A DNA stretch of 64,000 nucleotides, from NCBI RefSeq assembly GCF_002946835.1, contig NZ_CP026652.1, positions 8,432,001 to 8,496,000 on the forward strand, in the 5' to 3' direction. The DNA comes from Streptomyces dengpaensis. GTDB lineage: Bacteria; Actinomycetota; Actinomycetes; Streptomycetales; Streptomycetaceae. The notes under the pieces were generated by a model. It was not told the origin of the DNA, did no database searches, and saw only the letters and a list, made by a program, of their open reading frames with translations. The translations under genes were made by a program, and so were the position numbers. This document shows, one piece after another, positions 1 through 16,640 of the stretch (positions are counted from its first letter, which is position 1; every line of letters begins with the position of its first letter).

Positions 1-36
1 TCCGGTCTGGGCGGCGACGCGGCCGACGGTGAGCAT
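1..36 (-). CDS. MerR-family regulator, N-terminal fragment (runs off window)
   Basis: Reading leftward from the ATG at 36-34 gives MLTVGRVAAQTG, which has the shape of a MerR-family N terminus (first helix of the winged helix). Only 12 codons lie in the window. It is divergent from the CDPS-copA operon, and the MerR-type operator at 75-106 lies between the two. This is the usual place for a copper-sensing MerR (CueR-like) gene. The metal-binding C-terminal loop is outside the window, so the metal specificity cannot be read. Confidence 0.6.
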   Translation of the reverse strand, partial: MLTVGRVAAQTG

Positions 37-74: not shown

Positions 75-106
75 TTGACCTTGCCCTATGGGCAAGGTTT
101 TAGCGT
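75..106 (+). promoter_or_regulatory. MerR-type promoter/operator upstream of CDPS-copA
   Basis: A -35 element TTGACC (75-80) and a -10 element TAGCGT (101-106) are separated by 20 bp, the overlong spacing typical of MerR-activated promoters. Between them is a perfect 21-bp dyad, ACCTTGCCC (78-86) and GGGCAAGGT (90-98) around a 3-bp centre. The predicted transcription start is about 113, immediately before the ATG at 114, so the mRNA is probably leaderless. The same layout recurs at 6682-6713. Confidence 0.8.
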
Positions 107-113
107 CCGGGGC

Positions 114-830
114 ATGAGCACAGACCAAGGCGACAGCGGCGGCCGTACAGCGGCGATGTCGGTGACTCCGCTGAGCGGCCGGTGCGCCGAGGCGGTCGAG
201 CGGGCCGAGCACGTCTGCTTCGGGATCTCCCCGTTCAACAGCTACTTCTCCACGGCCCGGATCCGCGAGCTGGCGGCGTGGGGGCTCGACCGGTTCGAGC
301 GGGTGGACTTCTTCGTGCCCGACGTGCCGAGTGCGTTCACCTTCGAGGCGCTGGGATACGCCCCGGAGAAGGCGGCGTGGAAGGCTCGCAGGCAGGGCCA
401 GTACACCCGCAACAAGATCGTCACCGCGCTGGGTTCGCTCGGTGTGACGGACACGGAGGCGCGGGTGCTGGGTTGGGCTGAGCTGGAGGCCAATGCGGTG
501 TTCGGCCGTCTCCATGCGGGCGGGCTGCGCCGGTACGGCGAGGACGTAGCCTTTCGGGACGCCTGCCGGGAGGCGACCGGGTGGGTGCTGGCGGGGAAGC
601 TGCCCGCAGGGCAGGCGCCGGACGAGGAGCAGGTGGAGCGGGCGGTGCGTTACTTCCTGGCCGAGCTGCCGCTGTTCATCGACACCCCGGCGATCGTCGG
701 CGCCGAGACGTCCGTGTTCTGCTACCACGAGCCGCCTGCTGTGCTGCGCCGTCTGTACGGGGGCGAGCTGAGCTGGCGTCCCGCCGCCGGGCAGGGCTTC
801 GCCGTTGTGGCACCGGCCGTACGCGACTGA
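114..830 (+). CDS. tRNA-dependent cyclodipeptide synthase (CDPS, NYH subfamily)
   Basis: Predicted to use two aminoacyl-tRNAs to make a cyclodipeptide (2,5-diketopiperazine) in the cytoplasm. The 238-residue product has the CDPS hallmark [10 protein letters not shown] at 37-46. Its residues Ser39, Tyr180, Glu184 and Tyr204 fall exactly two positions after the catalytic set known in Streptomyces AlbC (S37, Y178, E182, Y202), which is of near-identical length. Asn42, Tyr204 and His205 place it in the NYH subfamily. ATG 114 is preferred over an upstream in-frame start at 69 because 69 precedes the promoter. The gene is followed 17 bp later by copA behind a GAGAGAGGAG ribosome site, so the two are probably one transcript. 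No adjacent oxidase or P450 is visible. The dipeptide made cannot be predicted confidently. Confidence 0.93.
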
Positions 831-847
831 GAGAGAGGAGTGCTGCC

Positions 848-3046
848 GTGACGACCACCACTCGGGCCGATGCCGAGCAGTCCATAGAACTGGCCATCAC
901 CGGGATGACCTGCGCCTCGTGCGTGGCGCGGGTCGAGCGGAAGCTGGGCAAGCTGCCCGGAGTGACCGCGACGGTGAACCTGGCGACCGCGACCGCGCAC
1001 GTCACCCGTGAGGACCTGGCAGTCGAGGTGGCACAGCTGATAGCCGCCGTCGAAGCGATCGGTTACGGCGCCGAGGCGCCCCGGAGCGGCGCACCGGGCG
1101 CGGACGATGAGACGGTCGACGCCGAGGGCGCACACCTTTCCGGGCTGCGCCGCCGCCTGATCGCCTCGGCGCTGCTCGGCCTGCCCGTCGTCCTGGTGTC
1201 GATGATCTCCCCGCTGCACTTCCCCGGCTGGGAGTGGATCGCGCTCGCGCTGGCGACCCCTGTCGTGGCGTGGGGCGCGTGGCCGTTCCACCGGGCCGCA
1301 GCCCTGAACCTGCGGCACGGGTCGGCGACGATGGACACTCTCGTGTCGCTGGGCGTGCTGGCCGCCTACCTGTGGAGCGCGGGGACCTTGGCGCTGGGTG
1401 GGCATCACCTGTACCTGGAGGTGGCCGTCGTCCTGACGGCCTTCCTGCTGGCGGGCCGGTTCTTCGAGGCCCGTGCCAAGCGGCGGGCCGGGGACGCGAT
1501 CCGGGCGCTGATGGACCTGGGTGCCAAGGACGTCGCCGTACTGCGCGACGGAACAGAAGTCCGGATCCCGGTCGAGGAGTTGGCGGTCGGCGACCTGTTC
1601 CTGGTGCGGCCCGGCGAGAAGATCGCCACGGACGGTCAGGTCGTCGAGGGCGCATCAGCGGTGGACGAGTCGCTGCTGACCGGTGAGAGCGTGCCGGTGG
1701 AGGTCGAACCCGGCGCACAGGTCACCGGCGCCACCGTCAACAGCCACGGGCGCCTCGTTGTGCGCGCCAGGCGGGTCGGGTCGGACACAAAACTGGCGCA
1801 GATCGCCGCGCTGGTGGAGCGGGCCCAGACCGGCAAGGCGGAGGTGCAGCGCCTGGCCGACCGGATCTCGGCGGCGTTCGTCCCCGTCGTCATTGCCCTG
1901 TCGATCGGCACCTTCGCCGTGTGGATGGCGACCGGAGCCTCGGCCGCTACCGCGCTGACCGCCGCCATCGCTGTGGTGATCATCGCCTGCCCCTGCGCGC
2001 TGGGGCTCGCCACGCCGACCGCGCTAATGGTCGGCACCGGACGCGGCGCCCAGCTCGGGCTGCTGATCCGCGGCCCGGAGGTGCTGGAGTCGACGCGGCG
2101 GATCGACACCGTCGTCCTGGACAAGACCGGCACCGTCACCGAGGGCAGGATGCACCTCGTCGGCGTCGTACCGGCCAACGGCGAGGACGAGCAGCAGGTG
2201 CTGCGGCTGGCCGGCGCCCTGGAGGACGCCAGCGAACACCCGATTGCCGCCGCCATCTCCAACGCCGCCCGGGAGCGCCTGGGTTCGCTGCCAGCCGTGA
2301 CCGGCTTCGCCAACACCCAGGGCCGGGGCGTGACCGGGCAGGTCGAGGGACGCACGGAACGCGCGGGCCGGTCGGCGTGGCTGGAAGACCAGAGTCAGGT
2401 GCTGCCCGACGAGCTCGTCCGCGCCCAGAAGGAGGCCGAGGCCCAGGGCCGTACGGTCGTCTTCGCCGCCTGGGGCGGGCGCGTGCGCGGCGCGCTGGTG
2501 GTCGCCGACACCGTCAAGCCGACCAGCGCCGCGGCGGTGGCTGACCTCAAGCGGCTCGGGCTCACCTCCGTCCTGCTGACCGGCGACAACACGGCGGCGG
2601 CACGCGCGGTCGCGGCCGAGGTCGGCATCGACCAGGTGATCGCCGAAGTGCACCCGGAGGACAAGGTCGCCGAGGTCGAACGCCTCCAGCGGCAGGGGCG
2701 GGTAGTGGCGATGGTCGGCGACGGCGTCAACGACGCGGCCGCCCTCGCCCAGGCCGACTTGGGCCTGGCCATGGGCACCGGCACCGATGCCGCGATCGCC
2801 GCATCCGACCTCACCCTGGTACGGGGAGACCTGCGCGCGGCGGCGGACGCGATCCGGCTGGCCCGCCGCACCCTCCGGACCATCAAGGCCAACCTGTTCT
2901 GGGCCTTCGCCTACAACGTGGCCGCGCTGCCGCTGGCCGCGCTCGGCCTGCTCAACCCCATGATCGCCGGGGCCGCGATGGCGTTCTCCTCGGTCTTCGT
3001 GGTCTCCAACAGCCTGCGGCTGCGCCGCTTCCAGCCACTGCGCTGA
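848..3046 (+). CDS. copA: Copper-exporting P1B-type ATPase
   Basis: Pumps Cu(I) out of the cytoplasm using ATP. The 732-residue protein has an N-terminal heavy-metal-associated domain with GMTCASC (near residue 19). Membrane segments follow, with the actuator motif TGES, the Cys-Pro-Cys transmembrane metal site in [12 protein letters not shown], the phosphorylation motif DKTGT, the SEHP motif of P1B pumps and the hinge GDGVND. Length and domain order are normal. GTG 848 is chosen because a strong purine-rich ribosome site (GAGAGAGGAG) lies just upstream and the HMA domain starts soon after. It follows the CDPS gene at 17 bp, so both are expected to respond to the MerR promoter at 75-106. The CPC motif favours Cu(I) or Ag(I). 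Confidence 0.95.
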
Positions 3047-3128: not shown

Positions 3129-3773
3129 TCATCTGTCGGCGGGCCCGGCTGTGGGCTTGCGGGCGGTGAGGCGTTCGACGATGCCGAGCTTGAACCGGCC
3201 GTGCTGCTCGATCTCCAGGCCCGCCGCCTGAACGTGCCGGAGGGGCCGGCGCAGCAGATGCTCCCCGCCCATCGGCACGGTGATGAGTTCGATGATCCGC
3301 TGCAGCGCGCGGACGGGCCAGGTGGTGCTGGGGACGTGGTCCAGCAGGAGGAGCTGGCCGCCGGGCCTGAGCACGCGGCTCATCTCCGCGATCGCGCGCT
3401 GGTCGTCGGGGATCGCGCACAGCGAGAGGGTGCACACCACGGTGTCGAAGGACGCGTCCGGGAACGGCAGGGCCTGGGCGTCACCCTCGCGCAGGTCCGC
3501 GGCCAGATCGAGCCTGCCTGCACGGCGCCGGGCGACGGCCAGCATCTGCGGGCTCCACTCGATGCCAGTCAGCCGCCTACCCGGAGGGTAGAGGGGCAGG
3601 TTCAGACCGGTGCCGATGGCGACCTCCAGAACGTCGCCGCTGGCTTGGGAACACACCCAGACGCGGCTCTCGCCGAACAGGGTGCGGTCGAAGAACCGCA
3701 TCTGCCGGTCGTAGGAGCGGGCATGCTTGTCCCAGTAGCGGCGCAGCCGCTCGTTGCTGCTCGGCTCGGGCAT
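3129..3773 (-). CDS. Class I SAM-dependent methyltransferase
   Basis: A 214-residue methyltransferase of the UbiE/Methyltransf_11 type. The SAM-binding glycine motif is seen as VLEVAIGTGLN, followed by GIEWSPQML, the acidic GDAQALPFPDASFD and the post-motif VLRPGGQLLLLDH. The substrate is not evident. ATG 3773 is chosen because GAGGATG lies upstream and family similarity begins there. The gene converges with copA (82 bp apart). Similar genes are often found near metal-resistance genes, but a role in modifying the CDPS product is also conceivable from position alone; that is inference. Confidence 0.85.
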   Translation of the reverse strand: MPEPSSNERLRRYWDKHARSYDRQMRFFDRTLFGESRVWVCSQASGDVLEVAIGTGLNLPLYPPGRRLTGIEWSPQMLAVARRRAGRLDLAADLREGDAQALPFPDASFDTVVCTLSLCAIPDDQRAIAEMSRVLRPGGQLLLLDHVPSTTWPVRALQRIIELITVPMGGEHLLRRPLRHVQAAGLEIEQHGRFKLGIVERLTARKPTAGPADR

Positions 3774-3885
3774 GGGCTCATCCTCGCCGCCGGGCGACTC
3801 CTGAGCACGTAAGCGTCGCCCCTCCGCAGGACCCGGCCGGAGGGCTTCCCCCGGCCGGGCCACCTTGGGCTTGGGCGTTGTCGTG

Positions 3886-4149
3886 TCAGTCGGCCGGGCG
3901 GGCCGTGTAGTCGCCGGCCTGCTCCACCGCCGCGACGAGTACGGCCGTGGCCACGTCGGCGCCTTCGTCCAGGCGGACGGTGGTGCGCCCGGTCTTCACG
4001 TCGGTGTGGGAGGAGCGGACCCCGGGGATGTCCTCCAGCTCGTCATCGATGAGCAGGCCGCAGCTGGTGCAGTGCATGCCCTCGACGTGGAGCACCAGTT
4101 CCGGACCGGTGTCGGCTTCGGTGTTGTTCTTACGGCTGAACAGCTTCAC
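3886..4149 (-). CDS. copZ: CopZ-like heavy-metal-associated domain protein
   Basis: A small soluble HMA-fold protein of 87 residues with the metal motif GMHCTSC (residues about 24-30), expected to bind Cu(I) and hand it to CopA. Most of the length is the single ferredoxin-like HMA domain. The GTG start at 4149 overlaps the stop codon of the upstream SafE-cupredoxin gene by one base, so the two are translationally coupled. The N-terminal MKLFSRKN segment is basic and not a signal peptide, which supports a cytoplasmic location. The pairing with a membrane cupredoxin protein strengthens the copper assignment. Confidence 0.88.
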   Translation of the reverse strand: MKLFSRKNNTEADTGPELVLHVEGMHCTSCGLLIDDELEDIPGVRSSHTDVKTGRTTVRLDEGADVATAVLVAAVEQAGDYTARPAD

Positions 4150-5303
4150 TACAGGTCCTTCTTGAAGTCGATGGCGCCGGTCTGCATGCCCATGGCGCAG
4201 GAGAAGCGGAGCGTGCCGGGCTTACGGGTGCCGAGGTCGATGTTGGTGTCGCCGTCCCGTTTGACGATCTCCTGGACGCCGAGTTCGGGGATGGTGAACG
4301 CGCGGGCGCAGCCGCCGGAGTCCTTGCCGTGCAGCACGAGCGTGGTCGGCACTCCGGCCTTCGCGGTGAACTGGGTGGGGGCGTAGAAGTCCGTCACGGT
4401 CAGCGTGACGATCTGCTTGCCGGAGGCGTCGATACGCACCAGCTCCGGGACATCGGCTTCCGTCGTCCCTCCGCCACCGGAGCCGCCCTGCTCGCCGCCC
4501 TCGACGGTGAACGGCTCACTCGCCACAGCCTGCTTGTCGGGGGTGGCGAACGAGACCCAGCCACCGGCCTGCAGCGCGGAGCCCACCGTCCAGGCCGCGA
4601 CGCTCAGCACCACCACACCGGTGAGCCCGGCCAGTCGCCCGGACAACGCCTGACTGCTGCGGCGGAAGAGGTAGCCGAGCACGGCGAACAGCGGCGCCGT
4701 ACCGATCACGAAACCGGCCATCACCGCCGCCCCGGCCACCGGAGATCCGGAGGTGATGGCGAGCAGCTCCATCGACAGGGTCACCCCGCACGGCACCAGC
4801 ACGGTGGCGAAACCGACCAGGGCCGGGGTGACGGCCGAGCCGGTCCTGGTACTGCGCCGCATCAACCGGCCGAACGATGCCGGAGGACGCGGCACCAGCC
4901 GCCCCACCCACCTGACGCCGAACAGGTCCAGCGCGAACAGCACCATCAGCACCCCGGCGGCCAGCAGCAGCACCGCCTGCATGCGAGGGCTGGGCTGCAG
5001 CGCATCACCAAAGACACCCAGCAATGCGCCGAGCAGGGTATGCGAGAGCAGCTTCCCGGCAAGGAACACTCCGACCGGCGCCAGCGGCGTGGCAGCTCGT
5101 TCCACCAAAGGCGCGGAGACAGGGCGGGACTGACTCGGCGACTTCTTGGAGGCCGACTTCGCGGGGGAGGGAGCGGGGGCGGGGGCACGGCGGCGGGTCA
5201 CCGCACCGGCCAACAGCCCCCCTTGAACGGCGGCACACGAGGCGCCACCGGCGAGCAGACCGGTACTCGCACCAGTGATCAGCAAAGCGACGGACGACGG
5301 CAT
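4149..5303 (-). CDS. SafE/UreH-type membrane protein fused to a cupredoxin-like domain
   Basis: A 384-residue membrane protein. The N-terminal two thirds contain about six hydrophobic segments of the TauE/SafE (UreH-like) type, including a VLVPCGVTLSMELLA segment with a Pro-Cys-Gly motif. After a Gly/Ser-rich linker, the C-terminal ~100 residues resemble a cupredoxin-like beta-sandwich with a HGKDSGGCARAF segment and FSCAMGMQTG, whose Cys and Met residues are candidate copper ligands. ATG 5303 is preferred because AGGAG lies ten bases upstream. Similar SafE-cupredoxin proteins are associated with copper loci. The gene is coupled to the copZ-like gene downstream. Transport direction is unknown. 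Confidence 0.8.
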   Translation of the reverse strand: MPSSVALLITGASTGLLAGGASCAAVQGGLLAGAVTRRRAPAPAPSPAKSASKKSPSQSRPVSAPLVERAATPLAPVGVFLAGKLLSHTLLGALLGVFGDALQPSPRMQAVLLLAAGVLMVLFALDLFGVRWVGRLVPRPPASFGRLMRRSTRTGSAVTPALVGFATVLVPCGVTLSMELLAITSGSPVAGAAVMAGFVIGTAPLFAVLGYLFRRSSQALSGRLAGLTGVVVLSVAAWTVGSALQAGGWVSFATPDKQAVASEPFTVEGGEQGGSGGGGTTEADVPELVRIDASGKQIVTLTVTDFYAPTQFTAKAGVPTTLVLHGKDSGGCARAFTIPELGVQEIVKRDGDTNIDLGTRKPGTLRFSCAMGMQTGAIDFKKDL

Positions 5304-5432
5304 GCGTCGGAACTCCTGTTCTGCGACGACGGCACGCACACAGGAATGCGGTTACGGGCGTGCCAAGGCGGACGTCAGGAACACGGCGTCCCACGAGGCG
5401 GCCCGAGGGGCAGCCTCACGGGCGGCGAGCCG

Positions 5433-6621: not shown

Positions 6622-6681
6622 GCCTGGATTCCTCCGAATCACGCCCGAGAGAAGCACCTCAGATCCAGCCTAAACAGACCC

Positions 6682-6713
6682 TTGACCTTGCCCCAGGGGA
6701 AAGGTTTTAGCGT
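6682..6713 (+). promoter_or_regulatory. Second MerR-type promoter/operator
   Basis: TTGACC (6682-6687) and TAGCGT (6708-6713) are separated by 20 bp, identical to the CDPS promoter. The intervening dyad (6685-6705) keeps ACCTTGCCC and AAGGT but has one mismatch in the right arm (GGGGA instead of GGGCA). It reads into the 48-residue Cys-rich gene at 6750, whose leader carries GGAAGGAGG. The same regulator probably controls both sites. Confidence 0.75.
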
Positions 6714-6749: not shown

Positions 6750-6896
6750 ATGGCATTCGTCGAAGGCGAGGTGTACCGGTGCCCGGACCCCAGCTGCGGC
6801 TGCGAGATCACCGTGACCAAAGGTGCACCCCCAGGCCATGGCGGTGATCAAGCCCCGACCTGCTGCTGCGGCCTTCCCATGGAGAAGGTCCGCTGA
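6750..6896 (+). CDS. Small Cys-rich putative metal-binding protein (48 aa)
   Basis: A 48-residue protein with seven Cys residues: CPDPSCGC near the N terminus and a CCCG cluster near the C terminus. The middle [12 protein letters not shown] is Gly/Pro-rich. This pattern suggests a metallothionein-like or zinc-ribbon-like metal chelator in the cytoplasm. A strong ribosome site (GGAAGGAGG) lies eight bases upstream of the ATG. It is the first gene after the second MerR-type promoter, so it should be among the most strongly metal-induced products. No characterised family is claimed. Confidence 0.75.
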
Positions 6897-7454: not shown

Positions 7455-7534
7455 CGCAGAGACGGGGCTGCCGGTCGGGCCGGGCACGGGAGCAGGACGC
7501 CACCACCGTCGGCACGCAGAAGCGGGCCAAACGG

Positions 7535-7708
7535 CACTGGCGACCTCCGCGGCTCTGCTCGGACAGTGAAGAGGAGCCTCTCGGGAGAGGTGAGCGCAGG
7601 CATGGTGCCGGCTGGGCCTGGATGGCTCTGATACCCCTTTTGTGGATCGCATTGATCGGCCTGGTGGTGTGGGCGGCCGTATGCCTCGCACAGCGTCCCG
7701 CCGGCCAC
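7535..7708 (+). repeat. Direct repeat, copy A (SHOCT gene 5' region)
   Basis: About 174 bp that closely match 8896-9080, from CACTGGCG through the ribosome-site region and the first ~35 codons of a small membrane protein, ending at CGGCCAC. Copy A lacks about 11 bases where copy B has its ATG start, so only copy B keeps an in-frame start. It is evidence of a local duplication. Confidence 0.8.
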
Positions 7709-8614: not shown

Positions 8615-8895
8615 ACCCTCCACCCCAAAACCCCGGTGCCCCAACCCGCGTGAGTGCCGCACCCCCGGGCGGCAGCCAGCCACATCTGCACCCCACTGCC
8701 CAGCCGATGCGCACGGCACCCCGCAACGCCGCCATCCGGATCCGCCGGGTGCTCGGCCACCTGCTGACGGCCGCCCTCGCCGAGTGTGGCCGTTCTTCAC
8801 TAGGGAACGGCCCACAGCGCCTTCCGCGGACACGGTGCTTAGCGGGAGGAGGCGGGCAACCGGGGCCGGATGACCCGCTGGGCGGGGCCTAAGGA
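8615..8895. other. Intergenic, no gene recognised
   Basis: About 280 bp between VKOR and the second repeat copy. The open frames here are shadows rich in Pro, Arg and Ala with no family resemblance. No strong promoter or terminator was seen. Confidence 0.5.
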
Positions 8896-9080
8896 CACTG
8901 GCGGCCTCGGCGGGTCTGCTCGGATGGTGACTGGGAAGCCTCTCGGGAGAGGTGAGCGCAGTGATGTACTGGGATGGTGTCGGCTGGGCCTGGATGGCCC
9001 TGCTGCCCCTGCTGTGGATCGTGTTGATCGGCCTGGTGGTGTGGGCGGCCGTACGCCTCGCACAGCGTCCCGCTGGCCAC
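8896..9080 (+). repeat. Direct repeat, copy B
   Basis: About 185 bp matching copy A at 7535-7708, with an extra 11 bases that contain the ATG of the SHOCT gene. Similarity stops just after codon 36 of the SHOCT protein. Confidence 0.8.
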
Positions 9081-11138: not shown

Positions 11139-13312
11139 GTGCGCCACGAAGTACTACGTCATCGTGTGGAGGTGAAACGACTTCACCGCCTGGCCGTCGC
11201 AGCGGCCGGGTTGAAGCTGGAGGCAGCCTGAGCCGGGGATCGCCGGGGAGGGTGGAAGCAGCCTCGACAACGTCGGGACGGGTCGGTACTGCCAGACGGT
11301 CCGGGTCCGGCTAGCGAGGTCAGAAGGCGTAACGCAAGTGAACCAGTGGTTGAAGCTCCGTAACGGTGCCTCCCGGCTCCAATCTGGCGGATATGGGCCG
11401 GGATTGCAGTACGTGACCCGATTCGATTAGGCGGGTCAACTCCGAAGCCGGTTCCAATAGACGGTGGGGAGGCCACGCTGAAAGCCTGCGGCGTAGGCGT
11501 GGCGATGCTGCCGGGGTATAGCTGGACGCCGACCTGGCCGAACGATGCGTAGTGAACGTGGGAACCACCTGCGGTCGCCCTCCCCCCGGACATCCGGTCC
11601 GGTGGTGGGCAGGCTCGTTGCCGGCTGACGGCCGTCGGGTGGGGCGGAGGCCCCGTAGTACTCCGAGCCGGGGAGAACCCGGCACTTGGGGAAGGGGGCC
11701 AGCAAGTCGGCAGGGAGGATGCTGGAATGCCGGGAGGACGTTGGTGAATACCGACGAGCTGGAGTGGGCCTTGATGAAGGCCGAGCGCCGGGTACTGGAG
11801 ATCCAGACCAAGCTGCACCGTTGGGCCGTAGAAGATCCTCATCGACGGTTCGACGACCTGATGAACCTCGTAGCCGACCCCGCGTTCCTGCTCATTGCAT
11901 GGGACCGGGTTCGGAGCAACAAAGGGGCGAAGACCGCAGGGGTGGACGGCCATACGGCCTCGTCCATCGCGCTGCGGCCGGGCGTCGAGGCGTTCCTCGA
12001 CGAGCTGCGGACCTCTTTAAAGGACCGCAGTTTCCGTCCACTGCCGTCGCGGGAGCGGCTGATCCCGAAGCCGGGGACGGCCAAGCGCCGCCGCCTGGGG
12101 GTCAGTTCGATCCGCGACCGGATGGTGCAGGCGTCCTTGAAGCTGGTGCTAGAGCCGATCTTTGAGGCGGATTTCCTTCCGTGTTCCTACGGATTCCGCC
12201 CCAAGCATCGGGTCCATGACGCGGTGTCCGAGGTGCGGCACTTCACGTCCCACTCCTATGAGTGGATCGTTGAGGGCGACATTCGGGCCTGTTTTGACGA
12301 GATTTCGCATCCTGAGTTGCTAGACCGGGTGCGGGGTCGGATCGGCGACAGACGCGTTCTGGCGCTGGTGAAGGCGTTCTTGAAGGCGGGCATCCTCACG
12401 GAGGAGGGCGCGCTGGAAGACACCGATACCGGTACTCCTCAGGGTTCAATTCTTTCGCCGTTGCTCAGCAACGTCGCTCTCGCGGTCCTGGACGAGCACT
12501 TCGCCCAGGCGCCGGGAGGCCCGGCGTCCAAGTCCTGGGAGCGCGCCAAACGCCGCCGCCACGGTCTTCCGAATCACCGGCTTGTCCGGTTCGCGGACGA
12601 CTGGGCGCTGATGGTGGCGGGCACCAGGGGCGACGCCGAGGCCTTGCGCGAGGAGGCCGCTCAGGTGCTCGCCCGGATCGGGCTGCATCTGTCGGAGGAA
12701 AAGACCCTGATCACCCATATCGACGAGGGCATGGACTTCTTGGGCTGGCGCATCCAGCGCCACCGCAAGCGGGGCACAGACCGGAAGTACGTCTATACCT
12801 ATCCGTCCAGAAAGGCGCTCCGCGCCGTCATGGCGAAGGTCAAGACCATCTGCCGACAGGTCGATACGAACCATCCGCTGGACATCCTCCTGCTCCGGAT
12901 CAATCCGGTGCTGCGGGGATGGACCGCGTTCTTCCGCCCTGGGGTGTCGAGCGTGACCTTCCAGTTCCTGGACGCCTATGTCTGGCGCCGGGTGATCGGA
13001 TGGATCCGCCGCAAGCATCGCAGGATCTCCCGGAAGGAGCTCCGCCGCCGCTACTGCGACGGTGGATGGTGGCCTAGAGGCCAGGAGCGGGAGCTGTTCC
13101 ACACCGGGGTGGTACGCACGACTCGGTATCGCTACCGGGGATCGGTGATTCCCTCACCCTGGCCGCTGGCAGCGGCATGAGGATCGAACCACGGCCCTGA
13201 CCGGGGCTTGTGGAGAGCCCGTTGCGGGGACGACTCGCACGGCGGGTTCGGGAGGCGGTCCGGAGAAACGGGCTGGTCGAAAGGCCAGAACCGCGCTCCG
13301 GGCCGACCTTAC
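11139..13312 (+). mobile_element. Group II intron inserted in a serine recombinase gene
   Basis: The intron starts with the GTGCG consensus at 11139. A structured 5' region of about 600 bp (domains I-III) comes before the reverse transcriptase gene. Downstream of that gene is a domain V hairpin (13215-13249) with GAGCCCG and CGGGTTC arms, followed by a domain VI-like hairpin and a 3' end in TTAC at 13312. The flanking DNA on both sides encodes one recombinase. Both exons and the RT are on the plus strand. The RT is intact, so the intron may still be mobile. Confidence 0.85.
11744..13180 (+). CDS. ltrA: Group II intron reverse transcriptase/maturase
   Basis: A 478-residue intron-encoded protein that assists splicing and copies intron RNA into DNA. 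RT motifs are visible: GVDGHTASS, RRLGVSSIRDRMVQ, CSYGFRPKHRVHDAV, DIRACFDEI, GTPQGSILSPLLSN, and the active-site FADDW (where most have YADD), then GMDFLGWRIQRH. The GLRGWTAFFR-like maturase X motif is present as NPVLRGWTAFFR. No HNH endonuclease domain follows; the protein ends soon after domain X. GTG 11744 is chosen because GGGAGG lies six bases upstream. It reads with the intron on the plus strand. Confidence 0.93.
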   Translation: MNTDELEWALMKAERRVLEIQTKLHRWAVEDPHRRFDDLMNLVADPAFLLIAWDRVRSNKGAKTAGVDGHTASSIALRPGVEAFLDELRTSLKDRSFRPLPSRERLIPKPGTAKRRRLGVSSIRDRMVQASLKLVLEPIFEADFLPCSYGFRPKHRVHDAVSEVRHFTSHSYEWIVEGDIRACFDEISHPELLDRVRGRIGDRRVLALVKAFLKAGILTEEGALEDTDTGTPQGSILSPLLSNVALAVLDEHFAQAPGGPASKSWERAKRRRHGLPNHRLVRFADDWALMVAGTRGDAEALREEAAQVLARIGLHLSEEKTLITHIDEGMDFLGWRIQRHRKRGTDRKYVYTYPSRKALRAVMAKVKTICRQVDTNHPLDILLLRINPVLRGWTAFFRPGVSSVTFQFLDAYVWRRVIGWIRRKHRRISRKELRRRYCDGGWWPRGQERELFHTGVVRTTRYRYRGSVIPSPWPLAAA

Positions 13313-15154
13313 AACTGTGTGCGCTCCGGTGCCCTGCTCGCCGACCCGGACGGCGTCTATGACCCGGCCGAGCACAACGACCGCATGCTGCTCGGTCTCA
13401 AGGGCACGATCAGCGAGGCCGAACTTCACCTGATCAAGCAGCGGATGTGGAACGGACGGATCAACAAGGCCCGCCGCGGCGAGCTGGCCGTGCCGTTGCC
13501 GGTCGGCTATCTCAGGCTCGCCGACGGCCAGGTCGTCAAGGACCCCGACGAGCAGGTGCAGGCCGTTGTCCGTCTGGTCTTCGACCTGTTCGACGAACTC
13601 GGCCTGATCAACGGGGTGTTGAGGTTCCTGGTCGACCACGGCATCCAGATGGGCATCCGGACCCGCGAGGGGCCGGAGAAGGGCCGGCTGGTGTGGCGGC
13701 GCCCCAGCCGGATCATGATCCAGAACATGCTCCGGCACGCGGCCTATGCCGGAATCTATGTCTATGGCCGCAGCCGCACCGATCCCCGCCGGCGCATCCC
13801 TGGGCGTCCCTGCACCGGCCGTGTCCGTAAACCGCGCGAGGACTGGCTGGTGTACTTGCCCGGGATGCTGCCCGCGTATGTCGGCACCGAGCAGCATGAA
13901 CGCAACCTGGCCCGGATCGAGACGAACCGGTCCCGGGCGCTGAGTCTGGGTGCCCTGCGGGACGGTCCGGCCCTGCTGGTCGGACTCGTCTACTGCGGCC
14001 GGTGCGGCACCCGGATGACCGTGCACTACCAGCGTGGCGCGGGCGGCAAGCTGTGGCCGAAGTACGAGTGCAGCCGCGTCAAGGCCGACTACGGCGGCGT
14101 CTTGTGTCAGCAGCTGTCCGGAGCCTGCCTCGACCGGTATGTCACCGCTCTGCTGCTGACCGCCCTCGCCCCGGCCGCTCTCGAAGTCTCCCTGGCCGCG
14201 GCCGAGCACGCCCAGCAGCGGCGCCACGAGGTGGACCGGATCTGGCGCCAGCGTCTGGAGCGGGCCGCCTATGCCGTCGACCGGGCCCGCCGCCAATATC
14301 AGCTGGCTGAACCGGAAAACCGCTTGGTCGTGCGCGAGTTGGAGCGCGCCTGGGAAGCCGCGCTGGCCGAGCGGCAGCACCTGGGCGAGGACTACGACCG
14401 CTTCGTCGCTGCCCGGCCGCGAGTCCTCACTGCCATCGAACGCGAGCAGATCCGGGCCCTGGCCAGCGACCTCCCGGCGGTCTGGCAGGCGCCCACCACG
14501 ACGGACACGGACCGCAAACAGCTGATGCGGCATCTGATCGAGAAGATCCGCGTGACCGTCATCGACGACAGTGAACGCGTCACTGTCCAGATCGCCTGGG
14601 CCGGCGGCCACCGCACCGACGGCGAGACCGTCCGCCCCGTCGGCCGCCTGGACCAGCTCAGCTACTTCCCTCAACTCGCCGCCCGCGCATGGGAACTGGC
14701 CGCCGCCGGACAGACCGCCCCCGCCATCGCGAAGATCCTCAACGCCGAGGGCTTCCGACCGCCCAAACGCCGTGACCACTTCGGCACTCAAGGCGTCCGC
14801 CAGCTCCTGCGCGAACTGGGCTGCATCAGCCCGCAGGAACAGAGCCTGCGTCGAAACGCCTCACCCCTCGGTCCCGACGAGTGGTGGCCCAGCGACCTCG
14901 CCCGCGAGATCGGCATGCCCCGCGTCACCCTGTTCGGCTGGATCAAGAACGGCTGGGTCACCGCCCACCAGCAAGATGACCGGCGCCGGTCCTGGGTGAT
15001 TCACGCCGATCGTGCCGAAGTCGAACGGCTCCGCCGCCTGCACGAACTGCCCCGCGGACACGGAGCACGCCAACCCTGGCTGTACCACCAGCGGATGGCG
15101 ATAATCCAGAATGAGACAGGAGCCCACGGCGATGACGACGAACCGCAGCTATGA
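13313..15154 (+). pseudogene. Large serine recombinase, 3' piece (after the intron)
   Basis: About 613 codons of a large serine recombinase without its N terminus: SGALLADPDGVYDPAEHNDR, then LLGLKGTISEAELHLIKQRM (end of resolvase domain), the Recombinase domain, a zinc-ribbon with CGRCGTRM, a coiled-coil region, and a C-terminal HTH-like region. Joining GAA CTG TGT GCG across the intron gives the expected LLELCAL, but then a single base is missing before CCGGTGCC. Either the exon carries a frameshift or the intron ends one base later. The catalytic serine region is missing upstream. It may once have been the integrase or transposase of an integrative element. Confidence 0.8.
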
Positions 15155-15168
15155 CAGCACTGCGGCTT

Positions 15169-15330
15169 GCTCATCTCGACGGCGTTCCGTTCCTTGCAGC
15201 GGTCTTCGTCGAAGCCTGGCGGCCGTCCGCCGCGTGATCCTTTGCGGAGGCGGGCGGCCTGGCTGTCGGGCTTCTCCGGGATGGTGTGCCGGATGCCGCG
15301 GCGGCGCAGGTAGTCACGGCAATTTTCTCC
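15169..15330 (-). pseudogene. IS5-family transposase C-terminal fragment
   Basis: The minus strand reads YLRRRGIRHTIPEKPDSQAA then RGGRPPGFDEDR and ERNAVE, the conserved C-terminal DDE part of streptomycete IS5-type transposases. About 54 codons remain between the recombinase and the IS630 element. Confidence 0.75.
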
Positions 15331-15397
15331 CGCGCCTTGAGCCACGGTAGAGATCCCTTGCTGCCGACCGTCGAACTGTCCGGCACGCTTGGACACG

Positions 15398-16640
15398 CTA
15401 GTGCTGTGACCGCATAGGTTCGCCGGGTTGGTGGTCGTGGCGGTTGGATGTGCGGTGACATCCGATCTGATCGCTGGAGGCGTGGTGGCTGAGCCTGTCC
15501 GTGTGCGCAGACTGACCGACCAGGAGGGGCGGCGTCTGCAGCAGATCGTGCGCCGTGGCAGTACGAGTTCGGTGCGCTATCGGCGGGCGATGATGCTGCT
15601 GGCCTCGGCCGGCGGGAACCGTGTGCCGGTGATCGCCCAGCTGGTGCAGGCCGACGACGACACCGTGCGCGATGTGATCCACCGGTTCAACGAGATCGGC
15701 CTGGCCTGCCTGGACCCTCAATGGGCGGGAGGCCGTCCCCGCCTGCTCAGCCCTGACGACGAGAACTTCGTCATCCAGACGGCCACCACCCGCCCCGCCA
15801 AGCTCGGCCAGCCCTTCACCCGCTGGTCGCTGCGCAAACTCGTCGCCTACCTGCGCAAAGTCCACGGCCGGGTGATCCGAATCGGCCGCGAGACCTTACG
15901 CGGCCTGCTCGCCCGCCGCGGCGTGACCTTCCAGCGGACCAAGACCTGGAAGGAGTCCACCGACCCTGAGCGCGACGCCAAGCTCGACCGGATCGAGTAC
16001 GTCCTGGAGAACTTCCCCGACCGCGTATTCGCTTTTGACGAGTTCGGCCCGCTGGGCATCCGCCCCACCGGGGGAGCCTGCTGGGCCGGGCAGGGCCGCC
16101 CCGACCGAGTCCCGGCGACCTACCACCGCACCCACGGCGTCACCTACTTCCACGGCTGCTACTCGATCGGCGACGACACCTTGTGGGGCGTCAACCGCCG
16201 TCGCAAGGGAGCGGCCAACAGCCTGGCCGCACTCAAGTCCGTCCGGGCCGCCCGCCCGGACGGCGCCCCGATCTACGTGATCCTGGACAACCTCTCCGCG
16301 CACAAGGGCACGAAGATCCGCCGGTGGGCGCAGAAGAACAAGGTCGAGCTGTGCTTCACCCCGACCAACGCCTCCTGGGCCAACCCGATCGAGGCGCACT
16401 TCGGGCCACTGCGGCAGTTCACCCTCGCCAACTCCCACCATCCGAACCACACAGTCCAGACCCGTGAGCTGCACGCATACCTGCGCTGGCGCAACACCAA
16501 CGCCCGCCACCCCGACGTCCTGGCCGCCCAACGCAAAGAACGCGCCCGCATCCGCAGCGAGAAAGGCATCCGCTGGGGCGGACGCGCCCTCGCCGACGCG
16601 GCCTGACCCAACCGGCGAACCTATGCGGTCACAGCACTAG
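15398..16640 (+). mobile_element. IS630-family insertion sequence, intact
   Basis: Inverted repeats of about 32 bp start CTAGTGCTGTGACCGCATAG at 15398 and are mirrored to 16640, with one base-length difference (CGCCGGGTTG against CGCCGGTTG). The central TA of CTAG at each end fits the TA target duplication of this family. One full-length transposase gene lies inside. Confidence 0.9.
15485..16606 (+). CDS. IS630-family transposase
   Basis: A 373-residue DDE transposase. The N terminus has a winged/helix-turn-helix region (VIAQLVQADDDTVRDVIHRF). The catalytic triad is visible as FAFDEFGPLG, YVILDNLSAHKG and NASWANPIEAHFGPL. Length is normal. GTG 15485 is chosen as the start (MAEPVRVRRLTDQEG), with in-frame alternatives at 15482 and a TTG at 15428. 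No frameshift is seen, so the element is probably active. Confidence 0.92.
   Translation: MAEPVRVRRLTDQEGRRLQQIVRRGSTSSVRYRRAMMLLASAGGNRVPVIAQLVQADDDTVRDVIHRFNEIGLACLDPQWAGGRPRLLSPDDENFVIQTATTRPAKLGQPFTRWSLRKLVAYLRKVHGRVIRIGRETLRGLLARRGVTFQRTKTWKESTDPERDAKLDRIEYVLENFPDRVFAFDEFGPLGIRPTGGACWAGQGRPDRVPATYHRTHGVTYFHGCYSIGDDTLWGVNRRRKGAANSLAALKSVRAARPDGAPIYVILDNLSAHKGTKIRRWAQKNKVELCFTPTNASWANPIEAHFGPLRQFTLANSHHPNHTVQTRELHAYLRWRNTNARHPDVLAAQRKERARIRSEKGIRWGGRALADAA

Follow-up and report, generated by a model that had tools for sequence, protein, structure and literature searches.

A cyclodipeptide synthase gene between a MerR-type promoter and copA in Streptomyces dengpaensis

Introduction

Cyclodipeptide synthases (CDPSs) are familiar as the enzymes that open secondary-metabolite pathways. 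In a stretch of 64,000 nt from Streptomyces dengpaensis (positions 8,432,001 to 8,496,000 of contig NZ_CP026652.1, assembly GCF_002946835.1; hereafter, the window) such a gene stands in another setting, between a MerR-type operator and copA. What is the role of a CDPS in a putative copper-efflux operon? The initial annotation of this locus, based on the letters of the sequence, had suggested that copper stress induces a diketopiperazine, which might chelate copper, act as a signal, or be exported. Here, we analyze the operon, its relatives, and possible explanations of the arrangement.

Among the matches listed, open-access titles and abstract openings do not name a link of CDPSs to copper, metal resistance, mercury, or P-type ATPases. 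The available text of a survey of CDPS neighborhoods from 2010 (PMC2922099) mentions UbiE-type methyltransferases and pyridoxal phosphate (PLP) enzymes and contains neither copper nor mercury. In acid mine drainage, CDPSs have been reported from 23 metagenome-assembled genomes (MAGs) of Diplorickettsiaceae (PMC9734747), with copper given as the mine type and no gene linkage in the available text.

Results

The CDPS–copA operon

The predicted protein matches the CDPS profiles PF16715 (E 7.7e-71, residues 16–234; 238.8 bits at a cut-off of 27) and TIGR04539 (269 bits, cut-off 45) and is assigned to the CDPS fold. Residues S37, Y178, E182, and Y202 of AlbC correspond to S39, Y180, E184, and Y204 with a gapless offset of +2, and the NYH signature (N40, Y202, and H203 in AlbC) is present as N42, Y204, and H205. 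The profiles and the alignment thus bear out the earlier description of a complete CDPS with four conserved catalytic positions, and the coordinates agree with its placement as the first gene after the promoter, 17 bp before copA. The start was set at ATG 114; the longest open reading frame opens at GTG 69, within the promoter region. The enzyme presumably forms its product from aminoacyl-tRNAs. It differs from known NYH-type CDPSs (AlbC, Rv2275, YvmC) by the CGFPWLFF pocket and a tryptophan at the position of AlbC 155, and in being encoded in a metal-resistance operon, whereas the known ones belong to secondary-metabolite clusters. No second CDPS was found in the S. dengpaensis genome at E 0.001.

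CopA scores 558.1 bits with TIGR01511 (cut-off 397) and contains CPC, GMTCASC, and N-x6-YN-x4-P, the first and the last of which we take to be CopA/P1B-1 markers. No terminator-like site was found in the junction between the CDPS gene and copA, which features the ribosome-binding-like GAGAGAGGAG, and a terminator blocking their cotranscription was therefore rejected; a promoter scan, whose scope does not include MerR-type promoters, also yielded nothing at the junction. The coordinates of the main features are collected in Table 1.

Table 1. Features of the CDPS–copA locus and its surroundings (window coordinates)
Feature	Coordinates	Strand	Basis
Divergent MerR-type regulator gene, 5' end; about 134 aa, extends beyond the window	1..36	-	CueR model 96.9 bits; orthologues
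MerR-type operator/promoter: -35 TTGACC, 20-bp spacer with dyad CCTTGCCCTATGGGCAAGG, -10 TAGCGT	75..106	+	Pattern searches, kept in relatives
CDPS, 238 aa, NYH subfamily, probably leaderless	114..830	+	Profiles, catalytic residues, promoter spacing
17-bp gap with ribosome-binding-like stretch GAGAGAGGAG	831..847	+	Junction CDPS/copA
copA, Cu(I) P1B-1-type ATPase, one HMA domain	848..3046	+	TIGR01511, motifs
UbiE-like class I methyltransferase, convergent, optional neighbor	3129..3863	-	Profile; homologue search
HMA-domain protein, CopZ-like	3886..4149	-	
DsbD-like membrane protein with cupredoxin-like domain	4149..5339	-	
Second copy of the same MerR-type operator/promoter	6682..6713	+	Pattern searches
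48-aa Cys-rich peptide, metallothionein-like by composition, second operon of the putative regulon	6750..6896	+	

Operator, regulator, and putative regulon

The operator at 75–106, TTGACCTTGCCCTATGGGCAAGGTTTTAGCGT, contains the dyad CCTTGCCC/GGGCAAGG inside the 20 bp between TTGACC and TAGCGT, and so has the structure of MerR-family metal promoters, where the dyad lies, in the part of the source available, within a 19–20-bp spacer (PMC1526738). A degenerate operator pattern yields two matches in the window, with none expected (100 shuffles). Scanning of the 8.7-Mb genome with a 24-nt pattern, up to three mismatches being allowed, produced 12 places, compared to one for the reversed control, and only two sites without mismatches, both in the window (in the 75–106 site and at 6681–6704). 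One near-match to the operator on both strands is present elsewhere in the genome (G000:C1:4960435-4960463). Given the absence of expected matches in shuffled sequences and the recurrence of the layout in relatives, origin of the arrangement by chance or artefact is ruled out. The operator and the gene order support the proposed MerR-type, presumably metal-responsive operon headed by a CDPS, and its metal responsiveness is, we infer, a sound reading of the operon structure.

The regulator has orthologues 86–93% identical in four other genomes of the genus sample with a close-clade CDPS. It scores 96.9 bits with the CueR model TIGR02044, below the equivalog cut-off of 147.4, and 94.6 bits as CadR/PbrR; with these two scores the sequence does not tell which metal is sensed. 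One conserved cysteine is located in GEQPC/GQQPC and one in the C-terminal VC/IC-x-IIE. Common to the window and CueR–copA operons are the divergent regulator, the dyad in a long promoter spacer, and the CopA P1B-1 ATPase; the window differs in having a CDPS as the first gene and a regulator that stays below the CueR cut-off and, by the CueR numbering assumed here, keeps a single cysteine of the C-terminal pair.

The second operator precedes the gene of the Cys-rich peptide, for which no Pfam match was found. A similar peptide follows a similar operator in all ten further loci displayed, two of which (L175, L176) have no CDPS, and in L043 and L044 a separate regulator is found at the peptide. 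The natural reading is a two-operon regulon, comprised of CDPS–copA and the Cys-rich peptide.

Conservation in the close clade

The close clade (clade A) was represented by 21 distinct loci, that is, the window, three Streptomyces megaplasmids, 15 loci of named Streptomyces assemblies, and two genomes of the genus sample; two additional fetched loci were duplicates. The direct order MerR / operator / CDPS / copA is observed in 15 of the 21, a possible copA start being located 10–48 nt past the CDPS stop. G269 has the direct layout, but its copA is a frameshifted deletion remnant. The other five (L041, L043, L044, L045, L049) have a copA homologue approximately 0.8–1 kb downstream, a second MerR-type gene between CDPS and copA, and a degenerate palindrome upstream of CDPS; their copA homologues are 61–71% identical to plasmid CopA, the L049 copy being cut by the contig end. 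The linkage, present in 20 of 21 loci, thus extends beyond one strain, contrary to the possibility, considered in the initial annotation, of a pairing unique to this strain. The layout is present both in chromosomes and in the three megaplasmids, one of them from a strain of a former mining site.

Calculation for the 15 direct loci gives a 20-bp spacer and a distance of 6–7 nt from the –10 hexamer to the CDPS ATG, and the same is seen by eye in G269; this distance suggests that the CDPS mRNA is probably leaderless. The mean dN/dS is 0.225 for CDPS (45 pairs, 10 sequences) and 0.163 for copA (21 pairs, seven sequences), and purifying selection acts on CDPS. The six checked catalytic and NYH positions are intact in every aligned row of clade A.

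Distribution in Streptomyces and in the wider family

Some CDPS is present in 143 out of 392 genomes of the Streptomyces sample, and one of the close clade, in only five; a score gap sets this clade apart (at least 438 bits vs at most 294). Sixty CDPS loci from the sample were searched with 30 reference proteins from three metal loci. Six of them (L088, L094, L120, L123, L124, L127) have less than 5 kb on a side, which limits the absences in neighborhoods reported below. All four clade A loci have the MerR gene, with copA direct in three and a remnant in one, and CopY/BlaI and M56 genes immediately follow CDPS in all three loci of clade B1. Copper-reference matches were found in none of the ten clade B2 loci, and clear copper genes, in none of the remaining 43, where the matches comprised a partial one at 32% to a P-type ATPase (L139), one to a CcdA-like protein (L130), and two at 34% to a methyltransferase (L127, L129). 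In the named B1 loci L036, L052, and L054, CDPS is also followed by CopY/BlaI, with M56 in L036 and L052 and a gene annotated CopC in L036 (order CDPS, CopY–M56–CopC). LysR-like genes are seen by eye in the B2 loci L091, L095, and L097. At L095 (9733–11875) CDPS lies near the LysR-like gene and has a cytosine/purine-type permease (PF02133) directly after it, with no obvious tailoring enzyme there, and L091 and L177 resemble this setting by eye.

Beyond the genus the CDPS group is rare, with three carriers, including S. dengpaensis itself, among 394 genomes of the class sample and three among 220 genomes of the other-family sample. In a second family of this class, CDPS adjoins BlaI and an M56/M48-like peptidase in two genomes, which together carry three CDPS genes; one of these genomes also has SCO1/SenC within approximately 5 kb at both of its places. 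In-frame stops occur within the matched part of two CDPSs outside clade A, one of the three of this second family (G816) and that of G387; CDPSs of G864 (the same family) and G468 (a different one) have no metal-type neighbors in the part read. In one Bdellovibrionota MAG the CDPS stop overlaps the start of merA by 4 nt, this merA scoring above the TIGR02053 cut-off, and the G+C content of the locus fits its contig. A Legionella lytica plasmid (L180, 4992–5729) encodes a CDPS with the W155 marker and P1 LGFPMLFF directly before an annotated response regulator.

In a tree of 113 rows, the metal-linked groups and clade B2 form one supported clade (100/99), with good support also for clade A, clade B1, and the second actinomycete group individually. 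In a second tree, without rows of unknown context and with four outgroup rows, a branch with support 52/69 separates 30 metal-linked rows from 13 non-metal ones. Tryptophan at AlbC position 155 is present in 228 of 228 homologues among the matches listed and is a possible marker of the group.

Substrate pocket and candidate product

Pocket motifs P1 and P2 of NYH CDPSs have been defined per specificity group (PMC5816076, as far as the available text goes). The set of positions used here reproduces the published strings exactly for several controls (e.g., L118, L120, L134, L136), with the difference that AlbC 119, the fourth P1 position in that text, is the fifth in our set. The pockets of the window CDPS are CGFPWLFF (P1) and AWVGEPA (P2). 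The motifs closest to P1 are of the prolyl and leucyl types, VGYPSIFF, the one cysteine-type motif compared (PMC5816076, Table 2), being more distant, and the commonest P2 of clade A, AWVGQPD, is nearest a prolyl-type motif. Position 8 of P1 (AlbC 200) is F202, not the asparagine of the cYY group, so the cyclo(Tyr-Tyr) product implied by some database names was rejected; these names look generic. A protein named CDPS 102 (Algicola), of the characterized cysteine type, was absent from the protein search.

These motifs weaken the earlier suggestion that the product chelates copper, which is the weakest part of that interpretation; a thiol chelator may still be considered for the wider CDPS group and is not favored for the window enzyme. 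A chelator resembling pulcherriminic acid has also lost ground, as no P450 is present among the scanned neighbors. That pathway (YvmC and a P450; iron; PMC7731078) resembles the window operon in connecting a CDPS with a metal, and differs in a leucyl-type product, another regulator, and another metal.

On S. mirabilis plasmid pI (L179, 5588–8804) a CDPS 63% identical to that of the window ends an operon of a PLP enzyme, an MFS transporter, and CDPS with 4-nt overlaps. The PLP enzyme–MFS pair was rejected as a cysteine supply for CDPS, since 41 of the 60 genomes searched have its homologues and none was found in the window genome at the threshold used.

Surrounding island

Of the proposed lack of tailoring oxidases, the part concerning scanned neighbors stands: they include no cyclodipeptide oxidase or P450, not every gene having been scanned. 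The convergent gene after copA encodes a UbiE-like methyltransferase; close homologues occur in only some clade loci, and it was rejected as a fixed tailoring enzyme. Farther along the metal island are a VKOR-family protein (PF07884, 7979–8614) and a Cys-rich DUF326 protein (PF03860, 10000–10410), presumably resembling four-helix-bundle copper-storage proteins. Two direct repeats, one of 46 nt with 83% identity and one of 110 nt with 90%, are present approximately 1.37 kb apart at 7524–7708 and 8885–9080. Past the copper genes (11552–16606) are a group II intron reverse transcriptase, a protein with a Recombinase domain, and a DDE transposase, so the island looks mobile.

Discussion

We consider it somewhat probable that the window encodes a metal-stress version of CDPS, induced together with copA, whose product is a small molecule of the metal response. 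In this model, the MerR-type regulator would activate the promoter at 75–106, the metal being probably Cu(I), as suggested by CopA. The mRNA would probably begin at the CDPS ATG or right beside it, with CDPS and copA on one transcript. The CDPS would join two aminoacyl-tRNAs into a cyclodipeptide, for which P1 weakly points to a prolyl or small hydrophobic residue. CopA would export copper, and the same regulator would probably turn on the Cys-rich peptide elsewhere in the island. Unmodified or lightly modified, the cyclodipeptide would be exported or diffuse and might take part in the metal response.

Several observations weigh against this model. The regulator seems to lack one C-terminal cysteine of CueR, which makes the metal uncertain; the CopY/BlaI–M56 pair alone is a sign of copper only by its company, not a proof; and a single origin of the metal link, though possible, is weakly supported, at 52/69 for the separating branch. 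Pocket prediction for prolyl types is described as uncertain by its authors in the available text of PMC5816076. The same direction is indicated by plasmid pI of S. mirabilis P16B-1, a carrier of the CDPS–copA operon studied for metal resistance (PMC9195940). The abstract of that study reports increased copper tolerance after transfer to S. lividans, but according to the text available the transconjugants on copper medium “showed some weak changes” and copper tolerance of the cured S. mirabilis was “almost not affected”; other S. mirabilis genes may compensate for the loss. The copper genes tested in the available part were copY and copZ (SMIR_41155/41160), the CDPS–copA operon having other numbers (SMIR_RS42375-85), and the word cyclodipeptide is absent from that part.

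Gain and loss of the gene belong here as well. Orthologues of the MerR regulator are found at 11 places in 10 of the 392 genomes (E 1e-35), five with an intact CDPS. In G278 the promoter is fused to a scar of the CDPS tail, and in G153 an in-frame internal deletion has left 58 CDPS codons, copA being open in both; G006, G097, and the second place of G085 have copA behind the operator without CDPS, and the G090 place is distant. As copA persists without CDPS, the latter is a probable later insertion between a pre-existing operator and copA, and, given copA without CDPS behind a like operator, it would be an add-on, not obligate for copper export. The reverse case is G269, where CDPS is retained and copA is decaying.

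Such an insertion might also mean that metal is just a convenient switch for a CDPS whose product has an unrelated purpose, e.g., antagonism. This alternative, unlikely in our view and still worth serious attention, agrees with relatives having MerR–operator–copA without CDPS, survival of copA after CDPS loss in G278 and G153, the CDPS kept beside a copA remnant in G269, and the barely altered copper tolerance after curing of the S. mirabilis plasmid (PMC9195940, available text), as well as with the B2 members L091, L095, and L097, with LysR-like genes and, in L095, a permease directly after CDPS. Against it, CDPSs are repeatedly linked to metal genes, with at least four layouts and two phyla represented. 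Decay of the CDPS into a non-functional passenger is very improbable: two losses in relatives and the in-frame stops in G816 and G387, both outside clade A, would fit it, while the aligned rows of clade A keep all six catalytic and NYH positions with dN/dS of approximately 0.23.

As for the product, the metals concerned are thiophilic, and a cysteine-containing cyclodipeptide (dithiol) might bind Cu(I) or Hg(II). P1 is CGYPS(L/F/M)FF, similar to the cysteine-type VGYPSIFF, in three related CDPSs from probable copper loci of a different actinomycete family, and the 63%-identical CDPS of the S. mirabilis plasmid shares its operon with a PLP enzyme annotated as cysteine-synthase family. However, the window CGFPWLFF has tryptophan at AlbC 119 and is nearest the Pro/Leu types, the CGYPS motif is also present in L172, a CDPS without metal neighbors, and the PLP enzyme is SbnA-like below the cut-off, in addition to the wide distribution of its homologues described above; we regard a dithiol as quite improbable. 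Finally, CDPS chemistry consumes aminoacyl-tRNAs (PMC5816076, available text), and the enzyme could mainly drain them, slowing translation in metal stress; no specific sign of this was found, and there is little to recommend it.

The metal-stress model thus preferred would place the operon in a branch of the CDPS family that is conserved, tied to metal stress, and, it seems, unreported so far. More tentatively, and with rather less confidence than in the model itself, the CGFPxxFF/W155 branch might be a recurring metal-resistance module of Actinomycetota and Bdellovibrionota, induced along with genes of copper or mercury defense, whose cyclodipeptide aids the cell or its neighbors against thiophilic metals. 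The linkage of CDPS to genes of CopA, CopY/BlaI–M56, SCO1/SenC, and MerA suggests that it acts in metal stress. With a likely inducer, a defined operon, and natural knockouts, the product and its role are directly testable, and a CDPS in a metal operon suggests that metal defense may involve an as yet unstudied small molecule.

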